DNA of 45,417 bases from Clostridia bacterium (lineage in GTDB: Bacteria; Bacillota; Clostridia; Peptostreptococcales; JAAYPU01). Below are positions 54-43,012 of the stretch, piece by piece (the first letter of the stretch is position 1; each line of letters begins with the position of its first letter). The notes under the pieces are model-generated. The model did not search any database. It was not told the origin of the DNA and was given only the letters and a program-made list of their open reading frames with translations. The translations under genes and the position numbers were made by a program. Where the stretch lies: contig JADQBM010000039.1 in assembly GCA_016278615.1 (NCBI GenBank), positions 1 to 45,417 on the forward strand, in the 5' to 3' direction.

Positions 54-226
54 ATGTTAAACTTGGTTAATTAATAATTAATAATGAAGAATGAATAATG
101 ATGGTTAATTTTGTTACACAAAATTCTCTTTTATATAATTTCTATATTTTGCTATTGCAAAATATATTTCCTTCATTGTTCATTGTTCCTTATTCATTGT
201 TCATTGTTCATTGTTCATTGTATTTA
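54..226. repeat. tRNA spacer filled by a palindromic satellite element (Tyr-Gly)
   Basis: The left arm is made of AATGAAYA-type units and the right arm of CATTGTT units, which are their reverse complement with a 7-base period. Inside are two short perfect hairpins, TTTTGT-TAC-ACAAAA-like near 111-126 and TTTTGC-TATT-GCAAAA near 148-165. The spacer is 173 bases long, far more than the few bases to few tens usual between tRNA genes. No protein is encoded; an open frame here is low-complexity. Confidence 0.7.
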
Positions 227-311
227 TGGTGGAGGGAGGTGGATTCGAACCACCGAAAGCTCAGCTAACGGATTTACAGTCCGCCCCCTTTGGCCACTCG
301 GGAACCCCTCC
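227..311 (-). tRNA. tRNA-Tyr(GTA)
   Basis: The minus-strand sequence runs from GGAGGGG to an encoded CCA end. The anticodon loop contains CTGTAAA, anticodon GTA. A long variable arm gives the 85-base class II length expected for bacterial tRNA-Tyr. The T arm GGTTCGAATCC is intact. Confidence 0.96.
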
Positions 312-570
312 AGGTTTGTTGCTTGGGAATGAATAATTAATAATGTAAAATGAATAATGATGGTTAATTATCGGCTTCGTTAACTAAATCAGAGATTTAG
401 ACTTCGCGATTCCTGACCTACGACACAATCAAAGATTGCTGTTAGGTCATTGTGTTTCACAAATTCTCTTTTAATTTTCAATACTCTTGATTTTGCCCTA
501 GCAAAATCTTTCCTTCATTGTTCATTGTTCCTTATTCATTGTTCCTTATTCATTGTTCATTTATTTCTCA
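312..570. repeat. tRNA spacer with two repeat families (Thr-Tyr)
   Basis: This 259-base spacer holds AATGAATA/CATTGTT arms and a TTTTGC-CCTA-GCAAAA hairpin near 493-508. At roughly 370-455 it also holds an inverted, divergent copy of the 84-base structured repeat found at 16649 and 27114: on the minus strand it reads CCTAACAGCAATCTTTGATT then GTGTCGTAGGTC. Two small hairpins are visible, AAATC-AG-AGATTT-like and CAATC-AAA-GATTG. Confidence 0.6.
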
Positions 571-645
571 TGGAGCTGGTGAGAGGAATCGAACCCCCAA
601 CCTGCTGATTACAAGTCAGCTGCTCTACCGTTGAGCCACACCAGC
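571..645 (-). tRNA. tRNA-Thr(TGT)
   Basis: The minus-strand sequence begins GCTGGTGTGGCTCAAC and ends with an encoded CCA. The anticodon stem CTGAC/ATCAG-type encloses loop CTTGTAA, anticodon TGT. It is 75 bases long with a standard T arm. Confidence 0.96.
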
Positions 646-976
646 ATGGTTAATTAATAATGAAGAATGAATAATGAATAATTATGGTTAATTTTGTTTC
701 ACAAAATTCTCTTTTAGTTTTCAATACTATTGATTTTGCCTTAGCAAAATCTTTCCTTCATTGTTCATTGTTCATTGTTCATTGTATAAATGGTGACCTG
801 GGTCACCGACTAAGTGATTCACTCTAGCAAAATCTCTAAGTGCTAAGTGTAAGTAACTCCTTCGGAGTTAGTGTAAGTTAAGTCATAAAACAACATCTCA
901 ACTTACTATTTAGTACTAAACTCATCCTTAAACTTATACTTTAACTTACTTTTCATCCATTTTCAATGGATAATAA
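646..976. repeat. tRNA spacer with mixed satellites (Asp-Thr), 331 bases
   Basis: The stretch contains AATGAATA/CATTGTT arms around TTTTGT and TTTTGC hairpins at about 690-760. A second block of hexamer AAGTNT units follows at about 840-950, containing an ACTCCTTCGGAGT hairpin at 857-869. No gene is present. Both blocks match families found elsewhere in the window. Confidence 0.65.
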
Positions 977-1053
977 TGGCGACCTGGATGGGTCTCGAAC
1001 CCACGACCTCCAGCGTGACAGGCTGGCATTCTAACCATCTGAACTACCAGGCC
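977..1053 (-). tRNA. tRNA-Asp(GTC)
   Basis: The minus-strand sequence begins GGCCTGGTAGTTCAG and ends GTCGCCA with CCA encoded. The anticodon stem CCAGC/GCTGG encloses loop CTGTCAC, anticodon GTC. The seven acceptor pairs form with one G.T pair. It is 77 bases long. Confidence 0.96.
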
Positions 1054-1164
1054 GCATATTTCAATTGACAGTTGACAATTAAAAATTGAAAATTATTTTT
1101 GAAGTAGAATTTGTCTGCGACAAATTCTCTCCTAATTGTCAATTATCCATTATCAATTGATAAG
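1054..1164. repeat. tRNA spacer, TTGACAA-type arms (Val-Asp)
   Basis: The layout matches the other spacers but the arm satellite differs. TTGACAG/TTGACAATT units on the left are complemented by AATTGTCAATTAT units on the right. They enclose a perfect hairpin GAATTTGTC-TGC-GACAAATTC near 1108-1128, followed by CTCTCC. Confidence 0.6.
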
Positions 1165-1240
1165 TGGTGGGCGTAATAGGGCTCGAACCTATGACCCCCT
1201 GCTTGTAAGGCAGGTGCTCTCCCAGCTGAGCTATACGCCC
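1165..1240 (-). tRNA. tRNA-Val(TAC)
   Basis: The minus-strand sequence begins GGGCGTATAGCTCAG with CCA encoded. The anticodon loop CTTACAA between CCTGC and GCAGG gives anticodon TAC. It is 76 bases long. Confidence 0.96.
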
Positions 1241-1385
1241 CCGTTGTTTAATTAATAATTAATAGTGAAGAATTAATAATGATGGTTAATTTTGTTCCAC
1301 AAAATTTTCATTTATTCTATTTTCATTTTGCTTTGCAAAATTTCCTTAATTATTCATTTTTCATTCTTCATTCTTAATTTGAAAC
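1241..1385. repeat. tRNA spacer palindromic satellite element (Glu-Val)
   Basis: AATTAATAGTGAAGAATTAATAATG-like units form the left arm and TTATTCATTTTTCATTCTTCATTC-like units the right. They enclose TTTTGTTCCACAAAA and TTTTGCTTTGCAAAA hairpins. The design is that of the spacer at 54-226. Confidence 0.6.
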
Positions 1386-1576: not shown

Positions 1577-1605
1577 ATAGTAACATAATATATTACCCTT
1601 GTCAA
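1577..1605 (-). promoter_or_regulatory. promoter of the tRNA operon
   Basis: On the minus strand there is TTGACA (1600-1605), a 17-base spacer and TACTAT (1577-1582), a strong sigma-A type promoter overlapping a second TATAAT. It lies about 35 bases upstream of tRNA-Asn. Confidence 0.8.
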
Positions 1606-12477: not shown

Positions 12478-14013
12478 TTATATCCCTCTAAATTTCTTGT
12501 CGAGGCTTCTATACTGTATGGCTTCAGCAACATGGCTCGTTTCAATACTTTCTGAGACACTCAGATCAGCAATAGTCCTACTTAATTTTATTATTTTGGT
12601 ATAAGCTCTGGCACTTAAAGAGAGTTTTTTAAAGGCCACTTCCAATAATAGGGTACTTTCGGGTTTTAATTTGCAGTACTTCTTTATTAGCGTTGGACCC
12701 ATTTGAGAATTATACAGTATTCTACTTTTCTTAAACCTCTCTACCTGCATTCTTCTTGCACTTTCCACTTCTTTTCTCATCTCCAATGAACTTTTATGTA
12801 TACCATTAGACGATAAATCTTCATATTTTACAGGAAAAACTTCAATATGCATATCAATCCTGTCCAAGAGGGGCCCTGAAATTTTAGACATATATTTGGT
12901 TATCTGACCCACACTGCATATACATTCATGGGTTGGATCCCCATAATACCCACAGGGGCATGGGTTCATGCTTGCAGCAAAAATAAACTTTGATGGAAAA
13001 GTAAAAGAGGCATTGACTCTTGAAATGGTAACCACTTCATCTTCCATGGGTTGCCTGAGCATTTCAAGAACATTTCTGTTGAATTCAGGGAGTTCATCTA
13101 AAAACAAAACCCCGAAATGTGCTAAGGAAACTTCTCCAGGTTTTGGTATGCCACCCCCTCCCACCATCGCTGTAGGGGATATGGTATGATGGGGTGCTCT
13201 GAAAGGTCTTTCAATTATTAAAGCCTTTTTCTCCGACAGTTCACCAGCAACACTATATATTTTAGTGACCTCAAGTTTTTCTTCATAGCTCATTTCAGGC
13301 AAGATTCCAGGAATACGCCTGGCAAGCATGGTTTTTCCTGCACCAGGCGGACCAATCATCATGACATTGTGAGCCCCTGCTGCAGCAATTTGAAGTGCTC
13401 TTTTTACAGAATCCTGTCCGGCTACTTCAGAAAAATCCTCCGTTTTTTCTTCTTTAAACTCACTTTCATGAATTTCGATTTTGCTATAAGGCTCTATTAA
13501 ATTAGGTGCTTTTAAAAAGTCAACTACTTCTCGCAAATGTCCAAAAGGATATAGGATAACATCTTCTATGATGGATGCTTCTAAAACATTGGCAATGGGT
13601 AGGATAATCTTCTTTTTTCCTTGATTTCTAAGACCAATGATTAAGGGGAGCGCCCCATTGATTCTATTAATCTTTCCATCTAAAGAGAGTTCCCCAATAA
13701 TAGCATACTCCCCAACATACAAATCAGAAATATATTCTAAAGCCCACATGATTCCAATAGCCATGGGAAGATCAAAATGAGTCCCTTCCTTTTTTGTATG
13801 AGCCGGCGAAAGATTGATTGTAATTCTCTTTGAAGGAAATCTATAGCCGGTATTAATAATGGCTGAGCGCACCCGTTCCTTTGATTCTTTCACTTCCACA
13901 TGTGGTAAACCCACAATATTAAAAGATGGAATCGCATTGGACAAATCCGCTTCCACCATGGTGATTTCTGATTCAATTCCTTTTAAAGAACAACTAAGCA
14001 CTTTTGCATACAT
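12478..14013 (-). CDS. comM: ComM/YifB Mg-chelatase-like AAA ATPase
   Basis: This 511-residue YifB/ComM hexameric helicase-like ATPase promotes branch migration during integration of transforming DNA in species where it has been studied. The N-terminal Lon-like fold domain ends about residue 170. Walker A GPPGAGKT is at 221-228, and the Mg-chelatase signature FRAPHHTISPTAMVGGG and LDELPEF Walker B follow. Its cysteine-rich insert NPCPCGYYGDPTHECIC is conserved. The chosen start (MYAKVL) lies seven bases after GGAGGG. A longer open frame to 14130 exists only because the upstream hexamer satellite is open in this frame and would add a low-complexity LKLI-repeat leader. Confidence 0.95.
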   Translation of the reverse strand: MYAKVLSCSLKGIESEITMVEADLSNAIPSFNIVGLPHVEVKESKERVRSAIINTGYRFPSKRITINLSPAHTKKEGTHFDLPMAIGIMWALEYISDLYVGEYAIIGELSLDGKINRINGALPLIIGLRNQGKKKIILPIANVLEASIIEDVILYPFGHLREVVDFLKAPNLIEPYSKIEIHESEFKEEKTEDFSEVAGQDSVKRALQIAAAGAHNVMMIGPPGAGKTMLARRIPGILPEMSYEEKLEVTKIYSVAGELSEKKALIIERPFRAPHHTISPTAMVGGGGIPKPGEVSLAHFGVLFLDELPEFNRNVLEMLRQPMEDEVVTISRVNASFTFPSKFIFAASMNPCPCGYYGDPTHECICSVGQITKYMSKISGPLLDRIDMHIEVFPVKYEDLSSNGIHKSSLEMRKEVESARRMQVERFKKSRILYNSQMGPTLIKKYCKLKPESTLLLEVAFKKLSLSARAYTKIIKLSRTIADLSVSESIETSHVAEAIQYRSLDKKFRGI

Positions 14014-14030
14014 GTGAGAACCCTCCATAG

Positions 14031-14113
14031 TAAGTTTAAGTTTAAGTATAAGTATAAGTTTAAGTATAAGTTTAAGTATAAGTTTAAGTATAAGTTTAAG
14101 TATAAGTTTAAGT
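14031..14113. repeat. hexamer satellite AAGTTTAAGTAT upstream of comM
   Basis: About 14 units of a 6-base repeat alternate AAGTTT and AAGTAT. The array ends five bases from the comM ribosome site (CCCTCC at 14021-14026 on the plus strand). The same hexamer family appears at about 21300, 37210 and 38800. Confidence 0.85.
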
Positions 14114-14117
14114 CCTA

Positions 14118-14143
14118 AGGACAACCGCAAGGGCCTTCCCTAC
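14118..14143 (-). repeat. copy of the GTAGGG hairpin repeat
   Basis: On the minus strand it reads GTAGGGAAGGCCCTTGCGGT then TGTCCT. It is a relative of the repeat at 38000-38029 (GTAGGGACGACCCTTGCGGT...). It lies between the hexamer and heptamer satellites. Confidence 0.5.
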
Positions 14144-14147
14144 ATAT

Positions 14148-14188
14148 CTCTAACCTCTAACCTCTAACCTCTAACCTCTAACCTCTAA
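14148..14188. repeat. heptamer array (CTCTAAC)5.9
   Basis: Almost six perfect tandem copies of CTCTAAC are present. No complementary GTTAGAG arm is present nearby, unlike most other arrays in the window. The rest of the stretch up to 14278 is AT-rich and shows nothing recognisable. Confidence 0.9.
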
Positions 14189-23838: not shown

Positions 23839-24042
23839 AAGAGAAAGATAAAAGATAATAGATAATAGATAATAGTTAATAGTTAAGGTTAGTTTTGCTT
23901 TGCAAAACTTCCATTTAAAATATAATCAAAAATTGTTTTCTATAAAAAGAAGATTTTGTGCAACAAAATCCTCCATAACTCTTATCTCTTATCTGTTATC
24001 TATTATCTATGTTCTCTATTATCTCTTATCTATTATCTCTTT
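23834..24042. repeat. GATAAYA-arm palindromic element with twin hairpin core, copy 1
   Basis: The left arm is built of GATAATA units (23834-23885) and the right arm of TTATCTNTTATCT units (about 23980-24040). The core has hairpin AGTTTTGC-TTT-GCAAAACT (23891-23909) and hairpin GATTTTGT-GCA-ACAAAATC (23952-23970). It begins at the metH stop codon and ends just before the dCMP deaminase ribosome site. The same core recurs at 38090-38290, 41915-42087 and 42801-42960. Confidence 0.8.
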
Positions 24043-29094: not shown

Positions 29095-30171
<1,077 letters not shown>

Positions 30172-35928: not shown

Positions 35929-35957
35929 GAAATGGATTTCTTATTTTGGAGGGAAGT

Positions 35958-37211
35958 ATGAGTTTAACAGAACAAACTCTTCAGCATATCATAAATGCAC
36001 TAAAAAATGGCGTTGTCCCACAGTATGGAATAGAATATTTATGTGTTGGTAGAGAGAAACAATTGGAAGAGATTTCAAGAGGTTTTAATTTAGCAAAAGA
36101 TGGTAGTGGTGTGGTGAAGTTTGTAAGTGGCGAGTACGGATCTGGAAAATCTTTCTTTATGAAGAGAATAAAACTTGAAGCCTTAAGAAATAATTTTGTT
36201 GTATCTTCAATAAAAATCAATCAAGGTTTTCGCTTCAATCACTTACAACATTTGTATTACAACATCATGCATAATTTATCGATTCTTGAAAAAGGAGAAA
36301 CAGCTACAAGCATAGAAGATATCTTTGACCGATGGATTAGTAAAATTAAGAAAATGCCATATGGACAAGCTTCATGTGAGATTAAAGAAATTTTATATAA
36401 TCTCGAAAAGTATAATGCCTCATTTGCAAGAGCGGTCACATTTTATATTCGTGCCCGAATAAATGAAGACAAGGAACTGGCAGGGACCATAGCCTCTTGG
36501 ATTGCAAGTGAGAGTAACATACCGCATCAACTAAAGGCTAAGTTTGAAGTCATAGGTGATATTAATAAAATAAATGCTTTAGATTTTTTAAAGGCATTTA
36601 TTTATCTTGTTAAATATATGGGTTATGAGGGAATTGTAATATTGGTGGATGAAGTAGAACTTATAATGAACGAAAGGATCGATATACGATCTAAAGCTTA
36701 TGAAAACATTCGATATATCATAGATGAGTGTTCAATGGGCGAGCTAAAAAATACCCTGTTTGTGTTTGCAGCGACTAATGATTTGTTAAACGATACAGAA
36801 AAAGGCATCCCCTCTTATCAGGCACTCTTTCAAAGATTAGGGAATCCCGTTGATAAGAATAATGCTGCCTTATCAGATATTCGTCAACCCATTCTAAAAT
36901 TACCTGATTTATCAGATGAAGATTTCATTAAGATTACAAAAAATATATTTGAAATATATAATAAGATATACAACATTGATTTAAAAATTTCCATAGAATC
37001 CATTACCAATTGGGCATTATATATGTATAAAGAAGTAGAACCCCAAATGAAAAAAGTGAATCTAAGAAAGTTCGTAATGAAGGTCGTGGAAGTTTTTGAT
37101 ATTATTGAACAACATCCGGATATTACAATATTACGGTCAGAACTTAAAAAAATAGAAAAAGACGGCGTCCCTTATTTTAAAGCCGCACTGAAAGTGACAA
37201 AGGGGAATTAA
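35958..37211 (+). CDS. DUF2791/BrxD-like P-loop ATPase, orphan
   Basis: This 417-residue ATPase is of the DUF2791 family, whose best known members are the BrxD ATPases of BREX phage-defence systems. The N-terminus reads VPQYGIEYLCVGREKQLEE, then Walker A GEYGSGKS (58-65), NNFVVSSIKIN, and Walker B VILVDEVEL near 228, followed by a sensor-like FVFAATNDLL. No methyltransferase, PglZ phosphatase, helicase or other BREX gene is nearby; only yueI follows, beyond a satellite array. A chromosomal, non-defence role is therefore possible. GGAGGG precedes the ATG by four to five bases; an in-frame TTG inside the ribosome site was rejected. Confidence 0.82.
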   Translation: MSLTEQTLQHIINALKNGVVPQYGIEYLCVGREKQLEEISRGFNLAKDGSGVVKFVSGEYGSGKSFFMKRIKLEALRNNFVVSSIKINQGFRFNHLQHLYYNIMHNLSILEKGETATSIEDIFDRWISKIKKMPYGQASCEIKEILYNLEKYNASFARAVTFYIRARINEDKELAGTIASWIASESNIPHQLKAKFEVIGDINKINALDFLKAFIYLVKYMGYEGIVILVDEVELIMNERIDIRSKAYENIRYIIDECSMGELKNTLFVFAATNDLLNDTEKGIPSYQALFQRLGNPVDKNNAALSDIRQPILKLPDLSDEDFIKITKNIFEIYNKIYNIDLKISIESITNWALYMYKEVEPQMKKVNLRKFVMKVVEVFDIIEQHPDITILRSELKKIEKDGVPYFKAALKVTKGN

Positions 37212-37907: not shown

Positions 37908-38300
37908 GAAATGAGAGATAAGAGATAACAGATAACAGATAAGAGTTGAGGATGATTTTGTTAACACAAAATCTCCATTATAAAATAAAAATAACCAGTG
38001 TAGGGACGACCCTTGCGGTTGTCCTTGCCAGGTCGTAGGGGCTGGTCCTGTGCCTGCCCGAGCAAGATGCAGGTGACAGGAGATAGAGATTAGGGATAAG
38101 AAATGAGAGATAACAGATAATAGATAAGAGATAATAGTTGAGGATGATTTTGTTACACAAAATCTCCATTTTACAATAACCTGAATGAGGTTTTATATAA
38201 ATAGCTAAGTTTTGCTCCAGTAAAACTCTCCATAACTATTATCTATTATCTGTTATCTCTTATCTATCTTACGTTATCTCTTATCTATCTTACGCAAAGA
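37903..38300. repeat. GATAAYA-arm elements: half copy, nested hairpin repeats, full copy
   Basis: A half copy (37903-37996: GATAACA arm, GATTTTGTTAACACAAAATC hairpin, TCCATTATAAAA) is directly repeated as a full copy (about 38088-38293: arm, GATTTTGTTACACAAAATC-type hairpin, TTATATAAATA, GTTTTGC...GTAAAAC hairpin, TTATCT arm). Between them lie two GTAGGG hairpin repeats, 38000-38029 and 38035-38060. There is no gene in this 430-base gap. Confidence 0.8.
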
Positions 38301-38344: not shown

Positions 38345-38364
38345 CAATATAAAATTAAATACCA

Positions 38365-38612
38365 AATGGCATTGATGGGAAGAGTAGACATGGATGACGT
38401 TCAAAGAGAGTCGGAGATGGTGAAAGCCGATACGTTAAATAGGTTGAAGATGGCCCCGGAGCTCTATATCCGAATATTTTAGGGTATGGCGGGTTGATAT
38501 CCGTTAAAAATATATGGTTTATTAAACCTATTAAGGCATCAATCTTGAGATTGATGCAAAATAGAGTGGTAACACGGAAGCTTTTCGTCTCTAATGTCGA
38601 GGAGTTTTTTTT
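38365..38612 (+). promoter_or_regulatory. T-box leader, Met specifier, for metG
   Basis: The T-box riboswitch reads uncharged tRNA-Met. Visible parts: stem I start GATGGGAAGAGTAGACAT, the AGAGAGTCGGAGATGGTGAAA region, and the specifier ATG at 38450-38452 in GAAGATGGCCCCGGAGC. The T-box sequence AGAGTGGTAACACGGAAG is at 38563-38580. A terminator stem CTTTTCG/CGAGGAG (38581-38587 with 38598-38604) is followed by eight T. The stem contains two G.T pairs. Confidence 0.9.
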
Positions 38613-38802: not shown

Positions 38803-39008
38803 ATGACTCATATACTTACACTTCAATTTAAACTCACGGGCAGGCACAGGACCAGCCCCTACAGACTTACACTTAAACTCACGGGCAGGCACAGGACCAG
38901 CCCATACAGACTTACACTTAAACTCACGGGCAGGCACAGGACCAGCCCCTACAGACTTACACTTATACTACCACTCACACTTATACTTACCCTTAAACTT
39001 CAACTCAA
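38803..39008. repeat. 45-base tandem repeat x3 in hexamer satellite
   Basis: Three copies of the 26-base GTAGGGGCTGG...CTGCCCG hairpin repeat lie on the minus strand at 38837-38862, 38882-38907 and 38927-38952, exactly 45 bases apart, with nearly identical 19-base ACTTAAACT-type linkers. Hexamer ACTTAT/ACTTAA units follow up to the metG ribosome site. The array lies within the metG transcript, after the T-box terminator. Confidence 0.85.
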
Positions 39009-40954: not shown

Positions 40955-41118
40955 ACTTCAAATTAATAATGAACAATTAATAATGAACAATTAAGGATGG
41001 GTTTTTCCAAAACCCTCGTTATATTAGAAAGAGGTTTTAAAAGGTAGAAATTCTTCCTAATGGAAGAATTTCTGACCATAATTATTCATTATTCATTTTT
41101 AATTATTCATTATATTAA
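40955..41118. repeat. AATGAACA-arm palindromic element between metG and tatD
   Basis: Left arm TTAATAATGAACAATTAATAATG (40963-40993), core hairpins GGGTTTT-TCC-AAAACCC and AGAAATTCTTCC-TAAT-GGAAGAATTTCT (about 41046-41074), right arm ATTATTCATTATTCATTTTTAATT (41078-41112). Same plan as the tRNA-spacer elements but with different hairpin sequences. Confidence 0.75.
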
Positions 41119-41914: not shown

Positions 41915-42087
41915 AGAAAGATAACAGATAATAGATAACAGATAATAGTTAGGGAGGTTTTGCCGAGGCAAAACTTAGCCTTATATAAACATTGTTCTGT
42001 GGTTATTTTAAAATGGAGATTTTGTGTAACAAAATCATCCTCAACTGTTATCTATTATCTATTATCTATTATCTGTTATCTATTATC
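41915..42087. repeat. GATAAYA-arm palindromic element, tatD-sfsA
   Basis: Left arm GATAACAGATAATA (41920-41949), hairpin GTTTTGC-CGAG-GCAAAAC (41957-41974), hairpin GATTTTGT-GTA-ACAAAATC (42018-42036), right arm TATTATCTATTATCT (42045-42087). The right arm supplies the TAA stop codon of sfsA. Confidence 0.85.
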
Positions 42088-42800: not shown

Positions 42801-43012
42801 GGATAGATAATAGATAACAGATAATAGATAAGAGTTTACGATGATTTTGTTCCACAAAATCTCCATCTTAAATAACCAATCTTATGTTTTATATAAATAC
42901 CCAAGTTTTGCCCCAGCAAAACTCTCCATAACTCTTATCTGTTATCTATTATCTCTTATCTTTCTTTTTTCTTTTCTCAACTCTTATCTGTTATCTATTA
43001 TCTCTTATCTCT
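42801..43012. repeat. GATAAYA-arm palindromic element before spoIIE
   Basis: Left arm GATAATAGATAACAGATAATA (42802-42833), hairpin GATTTTGT-TCC-ACAAAATC (42843-42861), a TTATATAAATA segment, hairpin GTTTTGC-CCCA-GCAAAAC (42905-42922), then a doubled right arm of TTATCTGTTATCT units (42930-43012). The remainder up to spoIIE is AT-rich and contains TGTCAAA at about 43114, which could be a Spo0A-like box. Confidence 0.8.

Follow-up and report, generated by a model that had tools for sequence, protein, structure and literature searches.

What fills the long gaps between the tRNA genes of a single presumed transcript, and did that DNA arrive by repeated independent insertion, as an earlier note on this locus proposed? 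The question is posed by a minus-strand tRNA operon, Asn-Glu-Val-Asp-Thr-Tyr-Gly, that fills the first 1.5 kb of the window, a whole contig (C79) of 45,417 bases from a clostridial genome (G000) of 3.5 Mb in 128 contigs. ARAGORN called tRNA-Asn(GTT) at 1467–1541, tRNA-Glu(TTC) at 1386–1460, tRNA-Val(TAC) at 1165–1240, tRNA-Asp(GTC) at 977–1053, tRNA-Thr(TGT) at 571–645 and tRNA-Tyr(GTA) at 227–311, all on the minus strand; a truncated tRNA at 1–53 was found with Rfam and identified as tRNA-Gly(GCC) by comparison with a paralogous operon. Because the contig starts within the tRNA cluster, the operon is truncated at its Gly end. The best single operon promoter predicted from sequence, TTGACA-17-TACTAT with a TG before the second hexamer, lies at 1577–1605 (minus strand), and a genome from a sister genus of the same family (G001) has a matching TTGACAAGGGTAA and downstream GTGCTCACC context upstream of its tRNA-Asn. 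Terminator prediction returned no internal terminators on the operon strand. Every operon tRNA gene whose 3′ end lies in the window encodes CCA, and the elements described below start a few bases beyond it, so that an exonuclease would run into a stem if no endonuclease had cut before.

In transcription order the spacers measure 6 nt (Asn>Glu), 145 nt (Glu>Val), 111 nt (Val>Asp), 331 nt (Asp>Thr), 259 nt (Thr>Tyr) and 173 nt (Tyr>Gly), so that the five long spacers and the single short one given in the earlier note agree exactly with the ARAGORN and Rfam coordinates. Its description of the long spacers as filled with hairpins and satellites also holds. Relative to dinucleotide shuffles, RNA folding gave z-scores of −2.4 for Glu>Val, the weakest fold (3 of 200 shuffles were equally good), −5.4 for Val>Asp, −5.7 for Asp>Thr, −3.4 for Thr>Tyr and −4.9 for Tyr>Gly (positions 54–200 folded). 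Among periods 3–12, period 7 was best in each of the four long spacers bounded by complete tRNAs on both sides (z-scores of 3.7 to 4.9 relative to mononucleotide shuffling), and all arrays reported by Tandem Repeats Finder at 1–1385 had period 7, with one row of 14.

The arm satellites do differ from spacer to spacer. Glu>Val (1241–1385) contains an element that we call A, with AATGAAN arms and two hairpins, and Val>Asp (1054–1164) contains element B, with AATTGAY-type arms and one central hairpin (period 7, z 3.7). Asp>Thr is composite: its 5′ part (791–976) is element D, made of TAAGTT-type hexamer or 12-mer repeats and hairpins, and its 3′ part (646–790; fold z −5.2) is another AATGAAN-armed A. 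Sequence comparison and folding showed that Thr>Tyr (312–570) holds an A whose second hairpin is split by a nested element C (GACCTAACAGCAATC...AAATCTCTGATTTAG...; 366–448), a satellite-free double hairpin whose other copies are 95% identical in L112 and L113 and 83% identical in L009. The A of Tyr>Gly (54–226) has the longest left heptamer array in the operon. All of these elements lie on the minus strand. At gathering score, the Rfam 15 matches in the window were to tRNAs and a T-box only, and A thus has no match to a known RNA family.

Two further operons in the same genome carry A: Asn-Leu-Met-Met-Met-Val-Asp-Thr-Tyr-Gly-Gly (C75, L009), with A in five spacers, and an operon (C7, L010) with A in Trp>Pro. 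The 5′ part of Asp>Thr is identical over 186 of 186 nt between the window operon and L009. It includes half of an E-type repeat (798–822, minus strand, by sequence comparison); E was considered as a genome-wide family and rejected, being found only in the paralogous operon and as half copies. Elsewhere in the window, at 14031–14188, a TAAGTT hexamer/12-mer array adjoins a perfect (CTCTAAC)6 heptamer array, and the LILKLILK beginning of a mechanical ORF (12478–14130) is translated from its 12-mer part. The Asp>Thr spacer of the second operon (L009:4089–4337, G000:C75) and that of a genome from a different bacterial family (L032, G028:C18) share another peculiarity, in that the intact tRNA-Thr is preceded by two partial tRNA-Thr copies in tandem; each comprises the first ~20 nt, breaks off at the same D-loop place and runs on into TAAGTAGAGAACC-palindrome-GTGAATCACTTAGT.

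Read in the direction of transcription, A consists of an (AATGAAN)n arm, AAGGA, hairpin 1 (for example GATTTTGC TAAG GCAAAATC, or ATATATTTTGC...GCAAAATATAT), an AT-rich middle, hairpin 2 (AATTTTGTG..CAAAATT), ACCAT and a complementary arm, (TTATTCA)n. In aligned copies the foot of the palindromes is GG/CC, followed by the heptamer arms. Across 331 heptamer units of A, five positions hold one base in at least 91% of cases, G or T stands at the fourth, and the seventh accepts any base, though A seldom occurs there. The arms form terminal inverted repeats, variable in heptamer number, in 34 of 34 copies, and the left and right arm types match in every one of them (30 A/A and 4 F/F, where F denotes AGATAAN arms on the same core).

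Both hairpins vary by compensatory change. The 34 copies contain 32 different stem sequences for hairpin 1 and 23 for hairpin 2; when stem halves were exchanged between copies, pairing fell to 58% and 62%, respectively, from a self-pairing baseline that is 100% by construction, since the stems were found through their complementarity. In an alignment based on sequence only, the arms and hairpin 2, taken jointly, had 35 cells with changes on both sides, compared with 15 in shuffles. The hairpins are kept equally well far from tRNA genes, which makes their maintenance a property of the element.

Genome-wide, the two-hairpin core belongs to a family of roughly 90 copies by estimate. A covariance model (R1) built from eight tRNA-spacer copies of A scored 94.6 bits at 1254–1371, 126.9 bits at 656–782 and 115.6 bits at 73–197 in the window operon, although the higher scores of tRNA copies carry no weight given how the model was trained. 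It produced at least 79 two-strand matches in this genome (an estimated 55 or so places), at least 6 in G001 and at least 16 in a second sister genome (G002), and no matches in 57 further genomes from the same order, many of them AT-rich; within this sample A is therefore restricted to its bacterial family, where it is present in 3 of 3 genomes. About 45 places are away from tRNA genes, and the copies examined outside tRNA operons are intergenic; a few small mechanically called ORFs overlap elements. The core with F arms occupies an estimated 44 or so places. An exact scan for the left-arm/core junction across a wide set of genome contigs, which may exclude this genome and its near kin, gave 10 matches; the two inspected (L130, L133) were unrelated sequence lacking the element, and the remainder were scattered across distant phyla. 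We did not find the family described in the literature searched, which left out most subscription journals. A represents a genuine, clearly delimited repeat family that is new but of a known type, and the matched arms of its architecture are unusual.

In the window itself, one A is separate from the tRNA operon and sits between the genes taken to be metG and tatD (40961–41113, plus strand), and four F-armed copies are found at 23846–24041 (plus strand, orientation weakly determined; flanked by a presumed metH and a presumed deaminase gene), 38095–38294 (minus strand), 41919–42087 (plus strand; between genes read as tatD and sfsA) and 42803–43012 (minus strand). Another repeat, 3.2 copies of a 45-nt unit at 96% match (38828–38969), separates the T-box leader (38363–38595) from the gene read as metG. 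Two genes in the window also stood out. A plus-strand gene at 29119–30171 is predicted to encode a 350-aa ATP synthase c subunit with four c-type hairpin repeats (four PF00137 stretches); by eye, Glu occupies the usual carboxylate position in the first repeat only (AETSG) and Gln in the other three (AQTSG/AQTTG), a pattern that would mean one ion site per eight helices. A BrxC/BrxD-type ATPase (35946–37211, plus strand; PF10923, E 4e-90) adjoins the ATP synthase operon.

The sister genera allowed the same sites to be compared, since the orthologous operons of G001 share the neighbour gene and the promoter context. Trp>Pro holds A here and an unrelated C-type element in G001; Met>Met measures 49 nt here and 127 nt in G001, where an extra insert of roughly 75–80 nt is present; and Met>Val holds A here and is 45 nt long with no element in G001. 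Relatives thus show empty sites, which the earlier note had suggested seeking, as well as sites filled in another way. At Glu>Val, A here corresponds to AATTGAY arms in G001, and the two could have a common origin, because sister genomes from different genera may have diverged far enough to hide one. The note held that the same spacer sequence at the same site in relatives would indicate old, non-mobile spacers; such sharing was seen at one tRNA site only, Val>Arg, where the hairpin and 3′ flank are homologous between genera and the heptamers in the arms are different. Both genera conserve a Pro>Met spacer that has a TTGACA-17-TAAAAT-like promoter and no element, Asn>Val in G002 holds an unrelated GC-rich palindrome, and the paralogous operon's Thr>Tyr lacks the C element that is nested in A in the window's Thr>Tyr. 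At sites not next to tRNA genes, the metG-tatD gap of this genome carries A, G001 has a different heptamer array there (ATACTCY), and G002 has another repeat; at metH-deaminase, G001 keeps an arm of the same type. Heptamer arrays with a variable pyrimidine (ATACTCY, AACCTCY) were also observed at A/F sites in the metG-tatD and tatD-downstream gaps of G001 and G002 (L184, L185). These site differences indicate that the contents of such gaps come, go and are replaced, and that a minority of sites are shared; an ancestral element common to the genera at Val>Arg, and probably at metH-deaminase, means that some sites are not recent. With different repeats, or no repeat at all, at these positions in the sister genera, the spacers resemble parking sites for small elements that spread, not long-established fixed sequence.

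How, then, did the copies of A reach so many spacers? All 10 copies in the three tRNA operons share one orientation relative to transcription, and they represent 7 distinct spacer types, for which uniform orientation has a two-sided probability of 2 × 0.5^7 = 0.016 if they are independent. In a tree of 31 copies the tRNA copies cluster (2 label changes versus 6.5 in shuffles), and a single clade of tRNA copies is not rejected (p-AU 0.42). Elsewhere, A copies between co-directional genes are sense in 8 cases and antisense in 4, where orientation is clear; this difference is not significant, so there is no general orientation rule for A, and a general alignment with transcription was rejected. 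Uniform orientation, clustering in the tree and the 186 identical nucleotides together favour rare entry of A followed by recombination between spacers, which, judged from sequence comparisons, is probably a simpler reading than independent insertion. Selection for a precursor function would predict the same uniform orientation and clustering, and sequence by itself does not tell the two apart. The earlier note's inference of repeated independent insertions is accordingly only partly supported: the different families clearly arrived separately, but for the copies of A such a history is doubtful. On balance we favour, with some reserve, the view that the spacers are occupied by short non-coding palindromic repeats that behave as selfish or slippage-grown elements and that A entered once or a few times and then recombined among spacers.

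A MITE-like element transposed separately into each spacer by an unknown transposase would account for the terminal inverted arms, high copy number and intergenic placement of A, as well as for the nested insertion in Thr>Tyr and the occurrence of filled and empty sites. We nevertheless consider it unlikely, given the single orientation and clustering of the tRNA copies. No target duplication is seen either; the ends of A are repeat arrays at which no border can be fixed and no target-site duplication defined. A search for a linked transposase that covered Y1_Tnp (PF01797) identified none: A-like ends adjoin none of the six Y1_Tnp genes in the genome, and one F-armed copy in L145 lies more than 1 kb from the Y1 gene. 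One of these loci (L144, G000:C109) has a RAYT-like Y1 transposase gene flanked by several REPs of its own (GGACAACCGCAAGGGTCGTCCCTAC), unrelated to A. A RAYT-driven REP origin of A was rejected once the flanks of all six genes had been inspected.

A further proposal concerns the arms alone, namely that the heptamer arms are written by templated copying of one arm onto the other, the ends being rewritten in concert by an element with no transposase of its own. Six near-fixed unit positions (one of them G or T) with a free seventh, matched arms, unrelated units on one core and the unit swap at Val>Arg would all fit such copying, which we regard as a rather doubtful possibility.

The elements might instead be RNA processing signals under selection, with the stem offering an RNase III or RNase Y site for maturing CCA-encoded tRNAs. 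Stable folds in the transcribed strand, an operon strand lacking terminators and compensatory change in the hairpins are consistent with this idea, as is the single orientation in all tRNA spacers, because selection for a precursor function would also give uniform orientation and tight clustering. We judge this explanation improbable, however, since the 45 or so copies away from tRNA genes show no significant orientation and keep their hairpins just as well, sister genera lack A at the same spacers, spacers of 3–15 nt in the same operons carry no elements, and the tRNA operons of most relatives have spacers of 4–40 nt.

Still less probable is in situ filling of old spacers through slippage of AT-rich heptamers, with no movement of elements. 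In its favour, sister genera have differing heptamer arrays at shared positions (Glu>Val, Val>Arg, metG-tatD), and heptameric repeats have been described as over-represented in several bacterial genomes, with a slippage hypothesis put forward (PMC4692102). Yet slippage alone cannot make a two-hairpin core common to about 90 loci or inverted arms of the same heptamer, and it does not explain the presence/absence differences at Trp>Pro, Met>Met and Met>Val. Misplacement of repeats into the tRNA cluster of a short-read assembly is hardly credible: the assemblies are fragmentary and break in these repeats, contigs C79, C75 and C7 end in or near tRNA/repeat clusters, and two operons share 186 identical nucleotides, but the variant and the flanks are particular to each spacer, and elements also lie inside long contigs.

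Under the favoured reading of rare entry and later recombination, the gap between two tRNA genes of one transcript would carry little other information, such that repeats are tolerated there. A may then have moved among spacers, and from one paralogous operon to another, through gene conversion or homologous recombination, with the flanking tRNA genes and heptamer arrays serving as homology. Unrelated elements (B, C, D and E) would come to occupy these gaps by insertion. Bacteria are known to repair imperfect palindromes by fold-back; arms would lengthen and drift by slippage, and quasi-palindrome repair of this type could keep them matched. In the precursor RNA, the elements would form long stems between tRNAs whose ends are cut by the usual enzymes, and any effect on processing would be a side effect.

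Several known repeat classes resemble A. MITEs, ERIC, BOX and bcr1-type elements are non-coding imperfect palindromes of 100–200 nt in intergenic DNA, but they have fixed terminal inverted repeats, whereas the arms of A are tandem heptamers of variable length and interchangeable sequence. Elhai and colleagues reportedly described in 2008 tandem heptamers of Nostoc with embedded small dispersed repeats (SDR) of 21–27 nt. The two systems are alike in having intergenic seven-base arrays, compensatory hairpin modules, nested insertion and no known enzyme, and A too has a hairpin module embedded in tandem heptamers; its arrays, however, are inverted complements around a two-hairpin core and are always matched, and such arms are not known for SDR. 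The cyanobacterial heptamer/SDR repeats appear to be the closest relatives of A in kind. The GGGAATC and GGGGA(C/T)T repeats of Xanthomonas and Nostoc are likewise heptamers, mostly intergenic, that vary in length and sequence between relatives, and the Nostoc unit has a variable C/T position; they are direct arrays of G-quadruplex type in which inverted pairs occur (PMC4692102), and they are not known to have a conserved hairpin core like that of A. REP/BIME/REPIN sequences associated with TnpA-REP (RAYT) resemble A as many-copy intergenic palindromes with paired hairpins, (PMC3733652, PMC3116915), but A has no GTAG/CGTC tag at the palindrome foot in the aligned copies and, at the six Y1_Tnp loci inspected, was not seen next to a RAYT gene.

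The kind of element, if not A itself, extends further. Period 7 was best in 18 of 42 tRNA spacers of at least 60 nt from this genome and the order, a set fetched by similarity to the window operon and so not a random sample. Unrelated heptamers, some with strong folds, occur in tRNA spacers of other families (G026, GGGAAAY-like; G006, Glu>Val; G018, Val>Asp). His>Gln and Lys>Ser of L056 (G026:C71) show an A-like architecture of unrelated sequence, in which GGGAAAY-like heptamer arms and their complements enclose a central hairpin. Heptamer architecture built from unrelated units in other families of the order indicates that the kind is wider than this genome. Because whole arms, and not just single base pairs, change together, fold-back repair or templated copying could be tested between strains, and the coexistence of 3–15 nt spacers with a repeat-filled one of 331 nt in one presumed transcript offers a natural test of how much additional structure tRNA processing tolerates.
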